DNA of 30,531 bases from positions 1 to 30,531 of IMG/VR virus record IMGVR_UViG_3300017917_004574. One strand, given 5' to 3'. The notes under the pieces are model-generated. The model had not been told where the DNA came from. It saw only the letters and a list, made by a program, of their open reading frames with translations, and did not search any database. The translations under genes and the position numbers were made by a program. This document shows positions 5,742-28,375 of the stretch, in pieces. Every line of letters begins with the position of its first letter. Position 1 is the stretch's first letter. The DNA comes from a virus.

Positions 5742-5891
5742 ATGAAAAAAATAAAAGAAATGATCGAAACAGCACCATCAAAGAAAGACGCCATGGATAT
5801 ACTTGAGACATGGAGGTTGTTTTATGGGTTGAGTGAATCGCAGTATGCGAACGCAAGGAAATATATTCGAAAGGTTTGGAATCCACTATGA
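5742..5891 (+). CDS. Hypothetical protein, 49 aa
   Basis: Short ORF with a full cassette and AAAAGTT-ATG. It encodes MKKIKEMIETAPSKKDAMDI then LETWRLFYGLSESQYANARK and a basic end YIRKVWNPL. Likely two helices. Its stop lies 10 nt before the tRNA-like gene, so the two are probably on one transcript and the RNA would need processing. Confidence 0.62.
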   Translation: MKKIKEMIETAPSKKDAMDILETWRLFYGLSESQYANARKYIRKVWNPL

Positions 5892-5901
5892 TTTAAACCA
5901 T

Positions 5902-6000
5902 AGTCAGGTGGCGGAATTGGTAGACGCTACAAGCACCGTAGTGGAGAGCCTACAAGTGTAATTGAAGTGGCTCATACAGGTTCGAGTCCTGTCCTGACTA
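5902..6000 (+). tRNA. tRNA-Leu-like gene with aberrant anticodon arm
   Basis: The acceptor stem is perfect (AGTCAGG 5902-5908 with CCTGACT 5993-5999). The D arm is Leu/Ser-type (GCG 5911-5913, loop GAATTGGTAGA, CGC 5925-5927), and the T arm is canonical (ACAGG, TTCGAGT, CCTGT, 5976-5992). CCA is not encoded. The middle is odd. The only good anticodon-like stem is CTAC (5927-5930) with GTAG (5938-5941) around AAGCACC, which lacks the near-universal U33 and would read GCA. The variable region is very long, with GAGCC (5946-5950) pairing GGCTC (5969-5973) over an 18-nt loop. CTACAAG occurs twice, 23 nt apart (5927, 5950). It could be a diverged phage tRNA, a decayed tRNA carrying a partial internal duplication, or a tRNA-mimicking RNA. 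Confidence 0.6.
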
Positions 6001-6015
6001 CAAAAAATAAAAGTT

Positions 6016-6258
6016 ATGAATTATCAAAAATTAATGTCGCTTGACCCAACTACATATGGCTCAATGACTAACAGTAAAAAACAAGAAATTGTATTTGTTG
6101 AACACCCAACTAGAGGAGACGAATACCCCGTAATAGCGGTATGTCATGAATTGCAATTAGCAGCAGCAACAGATTTCTTTGAATTAGATGATATGACAGC
6201 GGAACATGGTGAATATGAACCGTGGTTTGATAAAGATGGGGAATTGGTTATTGGTTAA
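6016..6258 (+). CDS. Hypothetical protein, 80 aa, acidic
   Basis: The ATG is preceded by AAAAGTT and follows the tRNA-like gene by 15 nt, with no cassette of its own, so it is probably co-transcribed from cassette 13. The sequence has PTRGDEYPVIAVCHELQLAA in the middle and an acidic tail with FELDDMTAEHGEYEPWFDKD. No family recognised. Confidence 0.7.
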   Translation: MNYQKLMSLDPTTYGSMTNSKKQEIVFVEHPTRGDEYPVIAVCHELQLAAATDFFELDDMTAEHGEYEPWFDKDGELVIG

Positions 6259-6262
6259 AAAG

Positions 6263-6281
6263 TTCGTATATTAAAAGAAAA
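6263..6281 (+). promoter_or_regulatory. Cassette copy 14
   Basis: TTCGTATATTAAAAGAAAA, then TAAAAAGGTT and ATG at 6292. The segment 6264-6300 equals 3274-3310 exactly, including the first codons ATGAAATTT. Confidence 0.62.
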
Positions 6282-6291
6282 TAAAAAGGTT

Positions 6292-6570
6292 ATGAAATTT
6301 GAATTTTTAAAAGAAAAAGAATTAGAGCTAATCAATAACAGATTTGCTGAGGAAGACTCAATTGATTATGATAATTGGCATTTAATGACGGATGAAGAGA
6401 TACTAATTACTGATGCTGCTATGTTTGTTTATGAAGCATATTGTGATAATGAGTTTGATTCATTGGAGGAATTCGCTAAAAATGCTTCTGAAGGAGAAGG
6501 AGATACAGTGGAGAATACTATTAAAAGATTAAATAGAATGTTAAATAAAGGAATATTAAAATTAAAATAA
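6292..6570 (+). CDS. Hypothetical protein, 92 aa, acidic helical
   Basis: Begins MKFEFLKEKELELINNRFAE and continues with acidic helices (NEFDSLEEFAKNASEGEGDT, about 56-75), ending in a basic helix IKRLNRMLNKGILKLK. The first codons match those at 3302, but the proteins diverge after the first few residues, so the identity concerns the control region and not the gene. Function unknown. Confidence 0.7.
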   Translation: MKFEFLKEKELELINNRFAEEDSIDYDNWHLMTDEEILITDAAMFVYEAYCDNEFDSLEEFAKNASEGEGDTVENTIKRLNRMLNKGILKLK

Positions 6571-6571
6571 A

Positions 6572-6591
6572 TTTCATATATTAGTGTATAA
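6572..6591 (+). promoter_or_regulatory. Cassette copy 15 (CATATATT variant)
   Basis: TTTCATATATTAGTGTATAA then GAAAATAAGAAAGTT before the ATG at 6607. Confidence 0.58.
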
Positions 6592-6606
6592 GAAAATAAG
6601 AAAGTT

Positions 6607-6840
6607 ATGAAAAATAAAAATAATACATTAAGTTCAAATATGCAAAAACAATTTAATATGATTGTTAGTGCTCTAAAAAGGGCTAAATCTGAGAAGGATA
6701 TTGATCAAGTCCATACAGATCTTATTCTTCTCCCTAAAAAACTAACAAAAATGTTTATTGATAAACTTGCAAATATGGGATTAGCAAACAAAGAAGGAGA
6801 GGGAAAATATTCACTTAGTTATAATAGTGAAGAGGATTAA
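6607..6840 (+). CDS. Hypothetical protein, 77 aa, possible small winged-helix-like fold
   Basis: Lys-rich N-terminus (MKNKNNTLSSNMQKQFNMIV), then helices (SALKRAKSEKDIDQVHTDLI) and a segment FIDKLANMGLANKEGEGKYS. The helix-turn-beta look of that segment recalls the recognition helix and wing of winged-helix proteins. This is a weak structural impression, not a family match. AAAGTT-ATG supports the start. The next gene follows after 11 nt without a cassette. Confidence 0.68.
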   Translation: MKNKNNTLSSNMQKQFNMIVSALKRAKSEKDIDQVHTDLILLPKKLTKMFIDKLANMGLANKEGEGKYSLSYNSEED

Positions 6841-6851
6841 AAATAAAGGTT

Positions 6852-7022
6852 ATGACAGCAGACCAAATAGACAGAATAGAAGGAATAATAAGCAAGAAAA
6901 ATATACTCCAGTTCAAAGACACAATAGATAATATAGTGGATGAGTTAGTTGAGGATGGATTTGAGCAAACGGATGTAGCTACTTATTTGACGGAAGTGAT
7001 AAGAGAGTATTTAGTTGGATAA
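6852..7022 (+). CDS. Hypothetical protein, 56 aa
   Basis: Starts at ATG preceded by AAAGGTT and has no cassette, so it is co-transcribed with 6607-6840. It encodes a helical acidic protein: MTADQIDRIEGIISKKNILQ, then NIVDELVEDGFEQTDVATYL, ending TEVIREYLVG. The conserved AAAGGTT here, away from any TTCGTATATT core, argues that the GTT-ATG context is a translation signal. Last convincing gene before the noncoding island. Confidence 0.62.
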   Translation: MTADQIDRIEGIISKKNILQFKDTIDNIVDELVEDGFEQTDVATYLTEVIREYLVG

Positions 7023-7041
7023 ATTAATAAATGGAATTAGT

Positions 7042-7098
7042 ATGGCATTGTTTTTAGTGTTATTGGGCGCTGTTTTGTTGATTTTAAACGAGGAATAA
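7042..7098 (+). CDS. Possible 18-aa hydrophobic peptide
   Basis: ATG at 7042 encodes MALFLVLLGAVLLILNEE, a single hydrophobic run with an acidic end, similar in design to short membrane peptides or toxins of type I systems. There is no cassette and no AGTT before the ATG, so it may be chance. It sits at the 5' edge of the structured noncoding island. Confidence 0.3.
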   Translation: MALFLVLLGAVLLILNEE

Positions 7099-7132
7099 CG
7101 CGATAAAACGTATAGACATATAGTGTAGTGGA

Positions 7133-7172
7133 TTAGGAGGAATATGCGTTTAACTACGTTAGGAGGAATATG
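7133..7172 (+). repeat. Tandem repeat TTAGGAGGAATATG x2
   Basis: Identical 14-mers at 7133-7146 and 7159-7172, period 26 nt. Each contains AGGAGG, a full Shine-Dalgarno core, in a window where genes do not use one. Confidence 0.8.
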
Positions 7173-7279
7173 AGAGGGTGGAAAACAATAGGATAAAGAG
7201 TGGAATGGGAGTAGGAGATTAAGAGCGTATGTGTAGAGAGGGACCCACTGTGTCGAGATCGAGATAAGGTAGGGTACAA

Positions 7280-7303
7280 CCCTCCCCCACACCCCCACGC
7301 CCC
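7280..7303 (-). other. G-quadruplex-type motif on the minus strand
   Basis: Four C-tracts on the + strand: CCC 7280-7282, CCCCC 7284-7288, CCCCC 7292-7296 and CCCC 7300-7303, with loops T, ACA and ACG. The minus strand therefore fits the canonical four-tract quadruplex pattern with loops of 1-3 nt. Confidence 0.7.
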
Positions 7304-7770
7304 TTTCACAAGAGGTCAAAAGTATATACAAACCCCCGCATAGATGCGCGGGGAATAGCATTAGGAGAATAACAAGAGAGGGGTAGAGAACGACCCCTAC
7401 ATTAGGAAACTAACCAGGAGGATCGAGAGGGACCCCAAAAAGATCAAAAAATGTTAGGAGAAGCCATTAAGAGGATGTATCTTACTATATGTATTATTGG
7501 ATACAACGGTATCTTTATTACGAGGTATTGAGAGGAACGCAACAAACTTAGGGTACAGAAAGAACCTCCCACACCAAACAATATAGAAAACAGCGTATTC
7601 GTGTTGGAAATCGAATGAGTTTGGATGTTCTCCTACAACAAAACATACCCAGGATAAGCCCCTAAGAATGACCTGTTAGGGAACGTTTGTTAAAAAATTA
7701 AAAGCCACACATAAACGTGAGGCTATCAGACTGCTCATACAAACAAAGGAATATCTTATTTAAAATATAT

Positions 7771-7785
7771 TTTGTATATTTATAG
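7771..7785 (+). promoter_or_regulatory. Cassette copy 16 (TTTGTATATT variant)
   Basis: TTTGTATATTTATAG with the ATG at 7789 only 3 nt later. A short form like copy 2, and also close to the Bacteroidota -7 element TAnnTTTG (TATATTTA). Confidence 0.5.
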
Positions 7786-7788
7786 CAA

Positions 7789-7881
7789 ATGAGTAAGCAA
7801 GAAAAATACAAGCTATTATCACATTACGAGATGCAAGCAATGGCATTCTTGCTTATGTTATACATTAGAACATATAACTGA
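7789..7881 (+). CDS. Possible small protein, 30 aa
   Basis: Encodes MSKQEKYKLLSHYEMQAMAF then LLMLYIRTYN. A short-form cassette lies directly upstream, as for the gene at 472, which raises the odds that it is real. The C-terminal half is hydrophobic (MAFLLMLYI), so membrane association is possible. Confidence 0.42.
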   Translation: MSKQEKYKLLSHYEMQAMAFLLMLYIRTYN

Positions 7882-7910
7882 GATAATAAGCAATTGTAAT
7901 TGATTACTTT

Positions 7911-8063
7911 ATGAAAAGAGAAACGATTAAAATGAACATCAGTGTGACTAGAGAATCACAGAAACAACAAGGGTATTTTGATGGTCGCTTTGTTGAGAGG
8001 ACTACCCAGTCTAAAAAACAATATACACGTAAACGCAAACATAAGAGGACTAGCTTAGATTAA
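7911..8063 (+). CDS. Hypothetical basic protein, 50 aa
   Basis: Encodes MKRETIKMNISVTRESQKQQ, then GYFDGRFVERTTQSKKQYTR and a highly basic end KRKHKRTSLD. The charge suggests nucleic-acid binding (inference). No cassette lies directly upstream, so it may be co-transcribed with the 30-aa ORF. The upstream context TACTTT-ATG is not the usual AGTT-ATG. Confidence 0.5.
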   Translation: MKRETIKMNISVTRESQKQQGYFDGRFVERTTQSKKQYTRKRKHKRTSLD

Positions 8064-8094
8064 GCTATAAATGGACTATTATTATTGATAAATA

Positions 8095-8120
8095 TTTCAT
8101 ATATTTCAGTATAATTAAAA
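8095..8120 (+). promoter_or_regulatory. Cassette copy 17 (CATATATT variant)
   Basis: TTTCATATATTTCAGTATAA then TTAAAAAAGATAAAAGTT before the ATG at 8133. The TCAGTATAATTAAAA sub-type recurs in copies 19 to 22 with minor changes. Confidence 0.65.
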
Positions 8121-9071: not shown

Positions 9072-9413
9072 ATGAAAAAAGTTGAAGTTATTGAAGTAAA
9101 AAAATTAGGACGTCCTGTTAATGAAAACAGTGTAAGACAACAAAGGATTAAAGAGTTAGAGTTTAAGAAAGAAAATGGTTTGTTAAAACGAGGACGTCCT
9201 GTAAATGTTGAAAGTGAAAGACAGAAAAGGATTAGTGAGTTAGAGAATAAGAGAAAAAATGGAGAGTTGAAATTAGGACGTCCTGTAAATGAAAATAGTG
9301 AAAGACAGAAGAGATTAAAAGAATTAGAGAGTAAAAGAGAATTAGGTTTAGTTAAAAGAGGACGACCTAAAATGATTAAAGTAGAAGAAGTTAAAACAGA
9401 GGTAGTCAATTAG
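9072..9413 (+). CDS. Multivalent AT-hook-like repeat protein, 113 aa
   Basis: Three full 28-residue repeats (12-39, 40-67, 68-95) plus a fourth GRP. Each starts [L/R]GRPVN, followed by a charged helix of the form SERQKRIxELExKR and ends near xGxLK. GRP cores sit at residues 13-15, 41-43, 69-71 and 97-99, exactly 28 apart. RGRP flanked by basic residues is the core of the AT-hook, which binds the minor groove of AT-rich DNA; two of the four GRP cores (41 and 97) have Arg before Gly and two have Leu. The simplest inference is a multivalent binder of AT-rich DNA, perhaps a nucleoid-like or gene-regulatory factor. The charged helices could alternatively make this an RNA-binding or coiled-coil protein. 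Confidence 0.8.
   Translation: MKKVEVIEVKKLGRPVNENSVRQQRIKELEFKKENGLLKRGRPVNVESERQKRISELENKRKNGELKLGRPVNENSERQKRLKELESKRELGLVKRGRPKMIKVEEVKTEVVN
9105..9380 (+). repeat. 84-bp tandem repeats within the AT-hook-like gene
   Basis: Units at 9105-9188, 9189-9272 and 9273-9356 with a partial fourth from 9357. The palindrome AGGACGTCCT recurs at 9107-9116, 9191-9200 and 9275-9284, and degenerates to AGGACGACCT at 9359-9368. Confidence 0.85.
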
Positions 9414-10083: not shown

Positions 10084-10085
10084 TA

Positions 10086-10260
10086 ACAACCCAGCACCTC
10101 CTAATAAAATTAACCCGCAAAATACCACCTCGTAATAAGGGTGGTTTGCGGTGCGTACGCCGGGCGTATATATATGGTATATGGTAGGGGATATCGCCCC
10201 ACGCGCGCCGTGGTCAATATGGTGGAGGTGGTGGGGGGAGGGTGGTGTGGATGAACCTTC
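10086..10260 (+). ncRNA. Candidate GC-rich structured RNA downstream of cassette 23
   Basis: Hairpins follow one another: CCGCAAA (10115-10121) plus CCACC (10125-10129) pairing GGTGG (10140-10144) plus TTTGCGG (10145-10151), 12 bp with a 3-nt bulge; TACGC (10156-10160) with GCGTA (10164-10168); GGGG (10187-10190) with CCCC (10197-10200); and CCACG (10199-10203) with CGTGG (10209-10213), the last two mutually exclusive. A G-rich tract follows at 10219-10250. The rest of the gap, 10261-10460, is AT- and pyrimidine-rich with no structure or gene I can support. A DNA role, such as a replication or packaging site, is equally open. Confidence 0.5.
10219..10250 (+). other. G-rich tract with quadruplex potential
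   Basis: Successive G runs GG, GG, GG, GG, GGGGGG, GGG, GG, GG separated mostly by single bases. It fits two-tier quadruplex patterns on the + strand. Confidence 0.55.
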
Positions 10261-10460
10261 ACATCTCCTACAACTTTTCCCCATCGACATTGTATATCCT
10301 TATATATTCAACTTATTGGGTAAATAATTCATATACCCCACAAAAACACACCCACATTTTTCATTTTACCAAATTTTCTAAAAATCAAAGGATATCAAAA
10401 AAGAGATTCTCAAAATTTTTTCACTCTAGAGCAAAGTATATTTGGATATACAAAATATTA

Positions 10461-10487
10461 TTCGTATATTGTATCATAAATTTAAAA
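10461..10487 (+). promoter_or_regulatory. Cassette copy 24
   Basis: TTCGTATATTGTATCATAAA then TTTAAAAAATAAAGGTC before the ATG at 10498. This is the last full copy before the late region. Confidence 0.6.
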
Positions 10488-10497
10488 AATAAAGGTC

Positions 10498-19301: not shown

Positions 19302-20138
19302 ATGGTAGGAATATATAAAATCACATCCCCATCTAATAAAATTTATATTGGTCAAAGTATAGATATTGAAAGAAGAAAAGAGGAATATAAAAGATTGAGT
19401 TGTAAAGAACAAACCAAATTATATAATTCTCTTAAAAAATATGGATGGGAATTACATTGTTTTGATATTATAGAAGAATGCGATGAATCTAAACTTATAG
19501 AAAGAGAAACATATTGGAAAAAATATTATAAAGTTTTAGAATTACCTTCATTATGTTGTAGGACAGATGGGAGAGGTGGATCTTTATCTAAAGAAACATG
19601 TGTTAAAATAAGTAATTCTAGAAAAGGAATTAAACATAGTCAAGAAACTAAAATTAAAATATCTATTAATCATTCCTCGTCTAAAAAAATTTATCAATAT
19701 GATGTAAAAGGAAATTTGATAAAGGTATGGGATTCATATTCTCAAGCTGAAAGAGAAAATAAAGGGAATATAAAAAATAATATTTTAGGAAAAACCAAAC
19801 ATTCTGGAGGATATATATGGTTGAGAGAAGAAGATCTTTCCCTTCTAAGTCATCGACTTGATTTGATTAATCAATATAAAAATCCACTATTAGGTAAAAG
19901 TAAATCTGAAGATCATAAAAGAATACTTTCTATAAGTATTAAAGGTAAAAAGAAAAACTATAAAAAAGAATATTTATTTAATAATATAGGTTTAATAAAA
20001 AAAGATTATGAAACTTTATCTGTAAAAATGTTATCGAATAAATATAACGTATCTATTTTTACTATGTTAGAATTTTTAAAACAAAATAATCTCTACATCC
20101 CAAGAAAAAATACAATAAATAAAATAGTACCTCTATAA
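19302..20138 (+). CDS. GIY-YIG homing endonuclease with NUMOD-type DNA-binding modules, 278 aa
   Basis: GIY at residues 3-5, YIG at 15-17, catalytic Arg25 (DIERRKEEY), catalytic Glu69 (LIERETYW), aligning with Gly-Ile-Tyr, Arg27 and Glu75 of I-TevI. After about residue 95 come modules of NUMOD3 type (SRKGIKHSQETKIKIS) and NUMOD1 type (KKIYQYDVKGNLIKVWDSYS, then GGYIWLRE), and a basic C-terminal region that may hold a further helix-turn-helix (SVKMLSNKYNVSIFTMLEFL). It is free-standing between gp6 and the next virion gene, like T4 Seg enzymes. The host genes are intact, so no intron is implied. Shares 54 identical nt with the enzyme at 27770. Confidence 0.93.
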   Translation: MVGIYKITSPSNKIYIGQSIDIERRKEEYKRLSCKEQTKLYNSLKKYGWELHCFDIIEECDESKLIERETYWKKYYKVLELPSLCCRTDGRGGSLSKETCVKISNSRKGIKHSQETKIKISINHSSSKKIYQYDVKGNLIKVWDSYSQAERENKGNIKNNILGKTKHSGGYIWLREEDLSLLSHRLDLINQYKNPLLGKSKSEDHKRILSISIKGKKKNYKKEYLFNNIGLIKKDYETLSVKMLSNKYNVSIFTMLEFLKQNNLYIPRKNTINKIVPL

Positions 20139-27600: not shown

Positions 27601-27753
27601 GATGATCCTACTTTAATATTAATTGATGGACTCAGACCATCAGGAGTATCAGGTGATGGACCATGGTTAGTTAAACCAGAATTTGTGAATCCTGCTCTAA
27701 ATAAAAGTATAGATCAATTTATTGTGGATCTTACGGAAAGAGGTTTGCTTTGA
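21649..27753 (+). CDS. Giant baseplate/tail-fibre-type structural protein, 2034 aa
   Basis: The longest gene here. The N-terminal about 450 residues are mixed alpha/beta. A conserved-looking region, YHNLPYLLKSKGTLPGLRAL then ITSYGIPDTILRINEYGGKD (about 553-592), leads into a LamG/concanavalin-like stretch (about 595-850: FRFKTPELP, GGWWSVMVNRSGSEFTLSAA). A second conserved region, YTKNYNLVDFIRLIKFFDNS then LFKMIRDFVPARTSLASGVV (about 1003-1045), follows. The remaining about 950 residues are Ser/Thr/Asn/Gly-rich beta sequence typical of fibres. Place and size suggest the role of T4 gp7/gp10-type outer wedge fused to a receptor-binding or fibre part. That equivalence is inference. No frameshift is visible. 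Confidence 0.75.
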   Translation: MATEIIQINTQTLESQAYNSQDTNLIPTFDVNTSLTSGSYIEYFVYDLNQNLLYTDYSFTQYTVLNDGQAAGNNVLSQIELDPERNLTSVGYDQGSYITYYNFLNKKIGSSLEQLYISEISSDRTEIRLDSTSLTNSDIVEQTTAFVDERENSEYFLDFYINFGDNQLYIANNIALDNEDPNNPTILIKLYEPLPTEFNINSTLWVISSVEEPIAYQVNFLEEPIVFDDTIRIKGPNFNIELKDQVNNSTQELSYTDLIATSLTSSQNQLNSLLEEKEIDINIDYTNFEDFIHFSSAQTRLENFYHKVSLIEQYSSSIAILNNTNSSSLAVSQSTAVYEAQINQIITNFDGWDYYLYYSSGSWAWPKLNTEPPYQLAPTGSVAVLNWFGSTNEYSPQYGGIILSASLYDNNNKDNLLYSIPEYLREDPANAPYELFIDMVAQHFDNIWIYYKDVTNKFDADNRLESGISKDIVADAIRDFGVKLYQNNFSNQDLYTAFLGLTPEGGLFPFPNITGSLPTPSGFEYIDTLVSASNDYLPLDDVNKSLYKRIYHNLPYLLKSKGTLPGLRALITSYGIPDTILRINEYGGKDKVDTNDWDYWQNEFNFAYSTEENNFISSSWTLNSNWNSPNDVPSTLAFRFKTPELPTANIRYSQSLWSNDSGSAITLTYTGSAYTTGSYSGSIIDPYYQYATLEFYPDIANLTATASVYMPFFDGGWWSVMVNRSGSEFTLSAANKIYEGGNNGTTLGFYATSSITGNDIPWINSSTSYFPISFSAATVFGYDIVTYDNTAIYDGTGSLAGLYEPFSGSYQEIRYYTTVIHPDVFKDYVMNPYSIEGNSLNSAPNELAFRASIGGEFYTGSVSIHPKVTGSWAITQSFPTDSSFYYDLTPIFKPNTEYFFYDQPVAGIKNAVSDKIRLENDNIPSGNTLSPFRRLAQTTEASASYTVGTNLLEVAFSPQNEINDDINSSIGFFNIGDFIGDPAFRSSRLNSYPDLDKLRNEYFEKYTKNYNLVDFIRLIKFFDNSLFKMIRDFVPARTSLASGVVIKQTLLERNRYPEPQITWENLDISGTIKSTQVWDHISQSSYISHSLIETFNGGTAGILEQFNGINTSPYGINGNGPSNRFGITQSWDETYPTLSGSVTIVHDSQDEFYNGEFSGSVLIVTTQSLNQPYPSNYNLFSYKPVHYYGISSTEDNIFKNNFFNTSTTPSPGEIYFYDKDPSNLSTAYIKIAKIDCNGNNNQYILETANILLIYNSDQSKYIEYPVKLFGEGSGFILYECIAPLKSFNEATFPNQVLDYTVSASKTIPQIISTPILGTYPIINNYSTKTGDTLNYFNLISGTYTLMNTPNTPLSITASFTNAGDASLGDGRAFIEILRNGTRTVLSSIIGFTTTSPTTVTISASYYGLEGDQLYLRATVSTALSSYTITNAQLSITQSRPIETVSCTPITFFEPNITEANFYNSDENALINNAFEDRLSTQYQDVDYSTGALIPTNFNLLISGSAQKAAVQDSNYSTIRHINPRYNGSRTTSQRLNVWTPDLDIGTYGKLPTIDSAKSYVAYCVNFTGYPPERMNTSALVVQYLIGEDGTIVIPNTSQNSLQINKGTFESRERVSIVTSNNILGLQKYYNIVRGGTRIEPILYTQSGSAPNENWNTTMSFEDITPSEIGLPGNYTAQYTKPGSDTLPNNSWFKIPLTNTIYGVSVSNNEYNVTLAAIEDGITFNVKAKFNIYVPGSYWWNETNIFYAFTGIGKSKKEEVFLGGSYSLNGRVVRERGSSKKYYPSSNGLNFSPPRGSIQTISIPSNPNEFITVPSADLNTGDKIYFEVKISYTPTEVPEGVSNIPTISSNVFTVAQYPLYSPSITSSGANSIWGWPNKTLYPNVITSSNQILVDTYDVNVKQVDITGSGFNPISLPWSIEYGDEFRFEGREDFTYQVGKIFPADVSGSGRITETGSIEVHFNSPLPISASSSAFNLDHFLIRRYVDDPTLILIDGLRPSGVSGDGPWLVKPEFVNPALNKSIDQFIVDLTERGLL

Positions 27754-27756
27754 TAA

Positions 27757-27766
27757 TATTTATAAT
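27757..27766 (+). promoter_or_regulatory. Late motif copy 5 (TATTTATAAT)
   Basis: TATTTATAAT then AAA and ATG at 27770. The spacing and the start ATGGT match copy 3 before the other homing endonuclease. Confidence 0.5.
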
Positions 27767-27769
27767 AAA

Positions 27770-28375
27770 ATGGTTGGTATATATAAAATAATATCCCCTA
27801 CAAATAAAATTTATATTGGCCAGAGTACTAATATAGAACAAAGATGGAAATGGTATAATAAATTATACTGTAAAAATCAAACCAAACTATATTATTCACT
27901 AAAAAAACATGGCCCCCAAAATCATATATTTAAAATTATAGAAGAATGCGATGAATCTAAACTTATAGAAAGAGAAACATATTGGAAAGATTATTATAAA
28001 GTTTTAGAAACACCTTCATTATGTTGTCGAATAGATGGAAAAGGAGGAAAAAATAGTAAAACAACAAATAAATTAATATCTAAAAGTAATAAAGGAGTAA
28101 GTAGAAATAAAGGAAGAATTCAAAGTGAGGAAGAAAGAAAATTAAGAAGTCAAATTAAACTTGGATATATACCTTCTTCTTCCCATATTGAAAATATGAG
28201 AAAATCTATGTTAGGGAAAAACACTAAAGGAATAATATGTATAAACACAGGAACAACATACCCTAGCATACGAGAAGCAGCTCAAATGTTAAATTTAAAT
28301 GAAAGAGCTATTGGTAATCATTTAAAGGGGTTGACCAAACAATTAAAAAATAAATTAATTTTTAAATATATCTAA
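27770..28375 (+). CDS. Second GIY-YIG homing endonuclease, 201 aa
   Basis: The start is ATG 27770 (MVGIYKI), as in the first enzyme; an upstream in-frame ATG at 27722 lies inside the previous gene. GIY 3-5, YIG 15-17, Arg25 and Glu69 are all present, so the nuclease looks active. After residue 90 it differs from the first enzyme: a basic NUMOD3-like stretch (SKSNKGVSRNKGRIQSEEER, then HIENMRKSMLGKN) and a C-terminal NUMOD1-like helix-turn-helix (YPSIREAAQMLNLNERAIGN). The N-terminal halves are closely related at DNA level while the DNA-binding halves are not, suggesting domain swapping and a different target. It sits just after the giant gene, which stays intact. Confidence 0.92.
   Translation: MVGIYKIISPTNKIYIGQSTNIEQRWKWYNKLYCKNQTKLYYSLKKHGPQNHIFKIIEECDESKLIERETYWKDYYKVLETPSLCCRIDGKGGKNSKTTNKLISKSNKGVSRNKGRIQSEEERKLRSQIKLGYIPSSSHIENMRKSMLGKNTKGIICINTGTTYPSIREAAQMLNLNERAIGNHLKGLTKQLKNKLIFKYI

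Follow-up and report, generated by a model that had tools for sequence, protein, structure and literature searches.

Comparative analysis of a gene-free phage locus points to a new structured RNA family beside a conserved DNA element

What does a phage keep in a stretch of some 640 nt in which no protein seems to be encoded? This question is raised by positions 7099 to 7740 of the window, as we call the whole 30.5-kb IMG/VR contig analyzed here, for which an initial annotation had proposed one large, hairpin-rich noncoding RNA. Comparison with related phages led us to a different answer: rather than a giant RNA of a new kind, the locus holds a new phage RNA family and, beside it, a conserved DNA element that is also new. 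The sequence comparisons indicate that the gap is conserved and very probably consists of two parts, a DNA element (part A) followed by a separate gene for a small structured RNA (part B). The compound reading of the locus as a whole, which adds to both parts the predicted expression of the RNA from its own promoter, is one that we regard as likely, with somewhat less confidence; an origin-linked regulation by the RNA is a guess.

The gene-free stretch and its surroundings

The window encodes a baseplate protein with 47% identity to its counterpart in Flavobacterium phage immuto, and a Bacteroidota-phage-like promoter, TTCGTATATT, precedes its small genes; on these grounds we take the window phage for a large T4-like Bacteroidota phage, and the genomes of the group look lytic and T4-like. 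Most small genes of the window phage have TTCGTATATT without a TTG upstream, and between 5700 and 10100 a recurring phage promoter of the form (AGGA)...TTATTAAAA...TTCGTATATTNNAGTATAATTAAA, unlike host sigma-A promoters, lies ahead of nearly every small ORF. Several other features of the surroundings were recorded. The Rfam tRNA model identified leucine-tRNA-like genes with unusually long interiors (99 to 118 nt) in the window (5902 to 6000, ~1.1 kb upstream of the gene-free stretch), in L085 (9082 to 9199), and in L013 (2681 to 2785); the U that normally precedes the anticodon seems to be lacking, and ARAGORN, for which only the window was scanned, missed the window copy. Inserted between structural genes are two similar homing endonuclease genes of the GIY-YIG type, one at 19302 to 20138, which matches PHROG homing endonucleases, and one at 27722 to 28375, which was assigned by sequence likeness only. 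A small protein of repeated units (LGRPVNENSxRQxRIKELExK...) is encoded at 9072 to 9413, with similar sequences in L025 and L085. A second conserved noncoding stretch, at 10084 to 10497 (core, 10135 to 10307), shows 68 to 79% identity by blastn in ~25 relatives, is more widely conserved than the stretch at 7099 to 7740, and has a TATATA/GCATCGACA motif that recurs at other intergenic sites; a further RNA or control region may lie here.

The gene desert itself proved real: no credible gene separates the ORF that ends at 7022 from the one that starts at 7911. In this gap, just two ORFs reach 50 aa, both on the minus strand, at 7011 to 7361 and 7154 to 7309; the longer one (116 aa) has no Pfam match, and relatives differ by indels across it. 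The raised G+C content reported for the stretch was also found (0.41 to 0.43 in 7001 to 7750, against ~0.25 to 0.35 around it), as were its internal repeats, all exact (GAGAGGGACCC at 7236 and 7425; TTAGGAGGAATATG at 7133 and 7159). The hairpin richness of the stretch as a whole is not clearly above chance, with a z-score of -1.73 and 2 of 20 shuffles folding equally well.

Homologous loci were sought in 80 related contigs that were gathered via a protein 4.5 kb downstream of the stretch, and the homologue set was drawn from reading these loci and from pattern scans. By blastn, DNA similarity to 7443 to 7781 was seen in L013 and L079, with a short stretch in L011. Among the IMG/VR relatives, part A was found in ~30 phage contigs and part B in 16 distinct copies, including that of the window; an additional part B copy in L071 is cut by the contig end. 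A DNA search of GenBank phages gave no match for the window and only chance-level scraps for L085 and L106, and a search with the part B covariance model (R1) of the cultured relatives immuto and Mel-JY01 and of LR756508 gave nothing convincing (best E-value, 0.26). Several matches were set aside: an exact-pattern match in L082 is unrelated coding sequence, the match in L094 lies in an unrelated coding region, that in L109 is unrelated, and an R1 match in G013 (E-value, 0.01) is without the conserved loop of helix P3. Among the bacterial genome contigs searched, no host or prophage copy was found; 21 of them matched the part A pattern and were not confirmed by the part A model. The end of contig L041 (positions 1 to 180) carries, apparently inverted, a copy of the small gene MKPKKDKVIQL..., for which L075 shows the plus orientation; L041 may be an assembly chimera. 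It was not relied on as a case of the RNA without part A, since the contig starts with this copy.

A conserved DNA element flanked by direct repeats

Part A lies within 7099 to 7350, running from about TATGTGGAAA to CAAAARTATATACA, and was mapped to 7160 to 7348 of the plus strand by nhmmer (100.7 bits) and by aligned blocks. A G-rich stretch, AACCC..., and a C-rich stretch are followed, after a fixed spacing of ~29 nt, by CAAAAGTATATACA (7318 to 7331); the blocks are nearly fixed in spacing, terminate in CAAAARTATATAC, and have short same-strand repeats on either side. In the four near-complete genomes (G001 to G004), part A gave one strong match each. RNAalifold found no consensus RNA fold in the part A alignment, and the near-fixed spacing of the blocks, together with this lack of a common fold, argues that part A is conserved as DNA. 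The single RNA of ~640 nt proposed for the stretch did not survive this comparison, its first half being conserved DNA without a consensus fold, and a model joining parts A and B in one RNA was dropped because RNAalifold gave part A no structure.

The repeats upstream of the element (7120 to 7175, plus strand) are exact copies of the TTAGGAGGAATATG type, at 7133 to 7146 and 7159 to 7172, and further TTAGGA copies occur at about 7361, 7402, and 7454. Relative to the TATATAC end, the copies stand at -197, -171, +31, +72, and +124, all on the plus strand; a 720-bp stretch contains five 9-mers like TTAGGAGGA, where the remainder of the contig would predict 0.1. The motif is TTAGGAG in the window and ATYRYCA in many phages. 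An iteron origin would be expected to show a cluster of short same-strand repeats that is unique in its genome, and such a cluster was found in G001, G002, and G004, where the 500-bp bin with part A holds 10, 10, and 8 repeats, respectively, and the next best bin holds 3 to 4; with the ATYRYCA-type pattern tested, no cluster was seen in G003. A local maximum of G skew coincides with the locus in G002, G003, and G004, without a change of sign. In these three genomes the excess of G over C rises to 0.37 to 0.70 in the small-gene region at part A and then drops near zero within about 10 to 15 kb downstream.

Directly behind TATATAC, at 7333 to 7353 of the plus strand, the sequence forms a C-rich/G-rich hairpin; many relatives have similar ones, and some are without it. 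In L095 and L101 an ORF begins five bases behind TATATAC, from which we consider that part A may include a promoter. The resemblance of the repeats to an iteron array favors a probable function of part A as replication origin or master control region, and the direct repeats might then bind a phage protein.

A small structured RNA gene behind the element

The structured noncoding RNA gene that we call part B was placed at 7488 to 7740 of the plus strand by cmsearch with R1 and by nhmmer; its boundaries are inferred, with the start at about 7485. R1 was trained on nine short members with the window excluded, and it recovered the window copy at 7488 to 7734 with 33.9 bits and a rough E-value of 0.0015 over 0.9 Mb, as well as the copies in L079, L013, L085, L089, and L098; an nhmmer model that included the window scored its part B at 192.8 bits. 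The gene measures ~135 to 150 nt in the shortest relatives (~135 nt in L075 and L041) and ~250 to 285 nt where a middle module is present, as it is in the window copy of about 250 nt. The longest ORFs within part B members (11 to 43 aa) are unrelated, and none is common to the members.

The predicted promoter of the RNA, at 7454 to 7483 of the plus strand, is of the Bacteroidota sigma-A type and consists of TTA(G) (7454 to 7456), 21 nt, and TATCTT (7478 to 7483). Fourteen of the 16 members have TTG or TTA, 19 to 22 nt, TAnn(T/C)(T/C), and CATATGTAT 1 to 3 nt further on, in a family layout of TTG, 20 bases, TATCTT, two bases, and CATATGTAT with near-constant spacing. This TTG-N20-TATCTT arrangement resembles Bacteroidota sigma-A promoters, whose consensus -7 box, established for flavobacteria and Bacteroidota, is TAnnTTTG (PMC9723704), whereas the -7 box of part B departs from TTTG in its last letters. 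The conserved columns and the promoter table place the presumed 5' end of the RNA at the conserved (C)ATATGTAT (7485 to 7494, plus strand), where many relatives have a palindromic ACATATGT.

Three main helices were recognized on the plus strand of part B, two of them by covariation. P3 (GAGGAAC, 7532 to 7538, with GAACCTC, 7562 to 7568) closes a conserved loop of 22 to 24 nt, which is GCAACAAACTTAGGGTACAGAAA in the window and GCAACAGNNTTAGGGCACAGAAA across the family. Six of its seven pairs have changed on both sides, and its covariation of 0.493, against 0.177 in shuffled data, was reached by 0 of 500 shuffles, a test that does not fully remove kinship among the phages; when the partner was slid along by one, two, or three columns, the value did not exceed 0.13. 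L024 was excluded from this count, as it keeps P4 and its P3 could not be placed. RNAalifold returned no structure for the P3 alignment, which we attribute to the existence of two versions of the helix, so that the pair count is the evidence there. P4, a 3' hairpin (GCCACAC, 7704 to 7710, with GTGAGGC, 7717 to 7723), is directly followed by the conserved 3' tail TATCAGACTGCT, helix and tail together covering 7704 to 7735; 98% of its cells are paired, six of seven pairs show changes on both sides, none of 500 shuffles (with the same reservation on kinship) reached its score, and it stands far above the slid controls. Both tests used plain sequence-only MAFFT alignments of segments picked by eye.

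The closing helix P1 (GGATAC, 7499 to 7504, with GTATTC, 7595 to 7600) is probable and has moderate support. Its 3' arm was not aligned by MAFFT, and it was assessed by hand and by duplex swapping only: with hand-placed arms, 60 of 66 cells are paired (shuffle P = 0.0012), and automatic duplexes of own versus swapped arms gave a P value of 0.016; for the window, the best own-arm duplex was found at another place. The optional middle module contains a hairpin (CCCTAA, 7660 to 7665, with TTAGGG, 7676 to 7681, plus strand) whose stem varies in step with those of L079 (CCATC/GATGG) and L013, as seen in the alignment without statistics. RNAfold predicted P1, P3, and P4 unaided in L041 (z-score, -4.1); the other single-sequence folds of part B members have mostly unremarkable z-scores.

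A new RNA family calls for covarying helices on alignments that were not made from structure and for recovery of a member by a model that had not been trained on it; P3 and P4 covary on such alignments, and R1 found the window. Judged by this comparative evidence, part B is a previously undescribed structured phage RNA family. The idea of a structured RNA in the desert therefore holds for the last ~250 nt, which covary, and fails for the size of 640 nt and the unity of the molecule; the comparative folding of homologous loci that the initial annotation had called for was positive, in P3 and P4.

Known families, competing readings, and a possible role

To our knowledge, few phage noncoding RNAs show real structural conservation, and most of these are without known function. 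Rfam 15 gave no match for the stretch and no family at gathering score in the window, and the earlier statement that the stretch can be assigned to neither GOLLD nor ROOL agrees with this negative search. In a relaxed search of window positions 5800 to 8100, four homologous loci, L106, and L041, nothing relevant except tRNA appeared; no match to GOLLD (up to an E-value of 5) or ROOL was obtained in these loci. HEARO or OMEGA RNA was rejected in the same way, with no nuclease domain in ten adjacent ORFs scanned, and the idea that ACAGAAA is RNase P-like was given up for want of an Rfam match. GOLLD and ROOL are, like part B, structured phage-encoded noncoding RNAs, and they are of unknown function and often near tRNA genes; GOLLD often exceeds 800 nt, and ROOL is likewise large and multihelical (PMC12286853), whereas the part B RNA has 135 to 285 nt and three main helices and matches neither model. 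The nearest known cases, by description, are the RNA-based prophage origins and the RNAs of ICP1. Cluster A mycobacteriophages also have a noncoding RNA beside a replication locus; these phages are temperate, and their prophages depend on the RNA region for replication (PMC7157519), whereas the genomes studied here look lytic and T4-like in our judgment and part A also occurs without the RNA. ICP1 is a large lytic phage with ORF-less transcribed gaps and unexplained abundant noncoding RNAs (PMC7567579), and the PLE satellites of ICP1 have an iteron origin that, like part A, lies in a repeat-bearing noncoding region (PMC7145576); the hosts, sizes, and sequences differ from ours, and the abundant RNA and the PLE origin lie on separate genomes rather than at one locus.

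Four other explanations of the stretch were weighed. That it is a decayed or frameshifted protein gene is extremely improbable: many small genes surround it and the 116-aa minus-strand ORF crosses it, but that ORF is without a Pfam match, the relatives are conserved without a common frame, the ORFs of part B are short and unrelated, and the RNA helices covary. A single large, ornate, GOLLD- or ROOL-like RNA, forming a new class, would suit the total length, the freshwater-phage setting, and the tRNA-like gene upstream; it is nevertheless very unlikely, as part A has no consensus fold, the parts occur separately, with part A lacking part B in about half of its loci, a promoter-like sequence stands between them, and Rfam gave no match.

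Part B might instead be a structured 5' leader acting in cis on the next small gene, which lies directly downstream in the loci read, and an obvious U-run terminator is absent; we consider this unlikely, since the downstream gene varies among phages (MKTIEVTQQEINQATRPNVY..., MKRETIKMN..., MNYQKL..., and others) and is in most cases served by a TTCGTATATT promoter of its own, immediately behind the RNA. More serious, and a little short of an even chance in our estimate, is an accessory trans-acting RNA unrelated to part A, in a variable slot where phages swap small genes, that would bind a protein of the host, for example RNA polymerase or a defense factor. The content of the slot does vary by phage (the RNA, short ORFs of the MENGGGCGCGRPKK type, or nothing), and conserved loops with drifting stems fit protein binding; against this, no binding partner is known, and in the loci examined the RNA was never seen away from part A, contig ends aside.

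This restriction to positions behind part A hints at a link between the RNA and the origin-like element. The RNA is, judging from the half of part A loci that lack it, dispensable for whatever part A does, and it may just as well be an accessory gene, one among several found in the slot. Across part B members the stems drift and the P3 loop and 3' tail stay constant, a pattern that would suit an RNA recognized by a protein, or by a host RNA that is itself conserved, better than one that pairs with variable phage messages. Transcription from its own predicted host-type sigma-A promoter would probably make the RNA early in infection, and an RNA made right beside part A might regulate the use of that element, in initiation, priming, or early gene timing. 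An origin-linked role, at best guess as an early regulatory RNA, is thus offered tentatively; the more specific proposal, that a lytic T4-like lineage controls a direct-repeat origin via a dedicated, adjacent structured RNA made by the host polymerase, is speculative and on present evidence improbable.

Part A and its repeats can mark the control region in an uncultured group of phages, one that is common among the contigs searched, from freshwater and other environments. The RNA is short, varies readably between lineages, has a predicted start and end, and adjoins an origin-like element; deletion or complementation in a phage of Bacteroidota could thus link a class of RNA with a function. If the proposed link is true, the locus would represent an RNA-controlled origin in a lytic phage.
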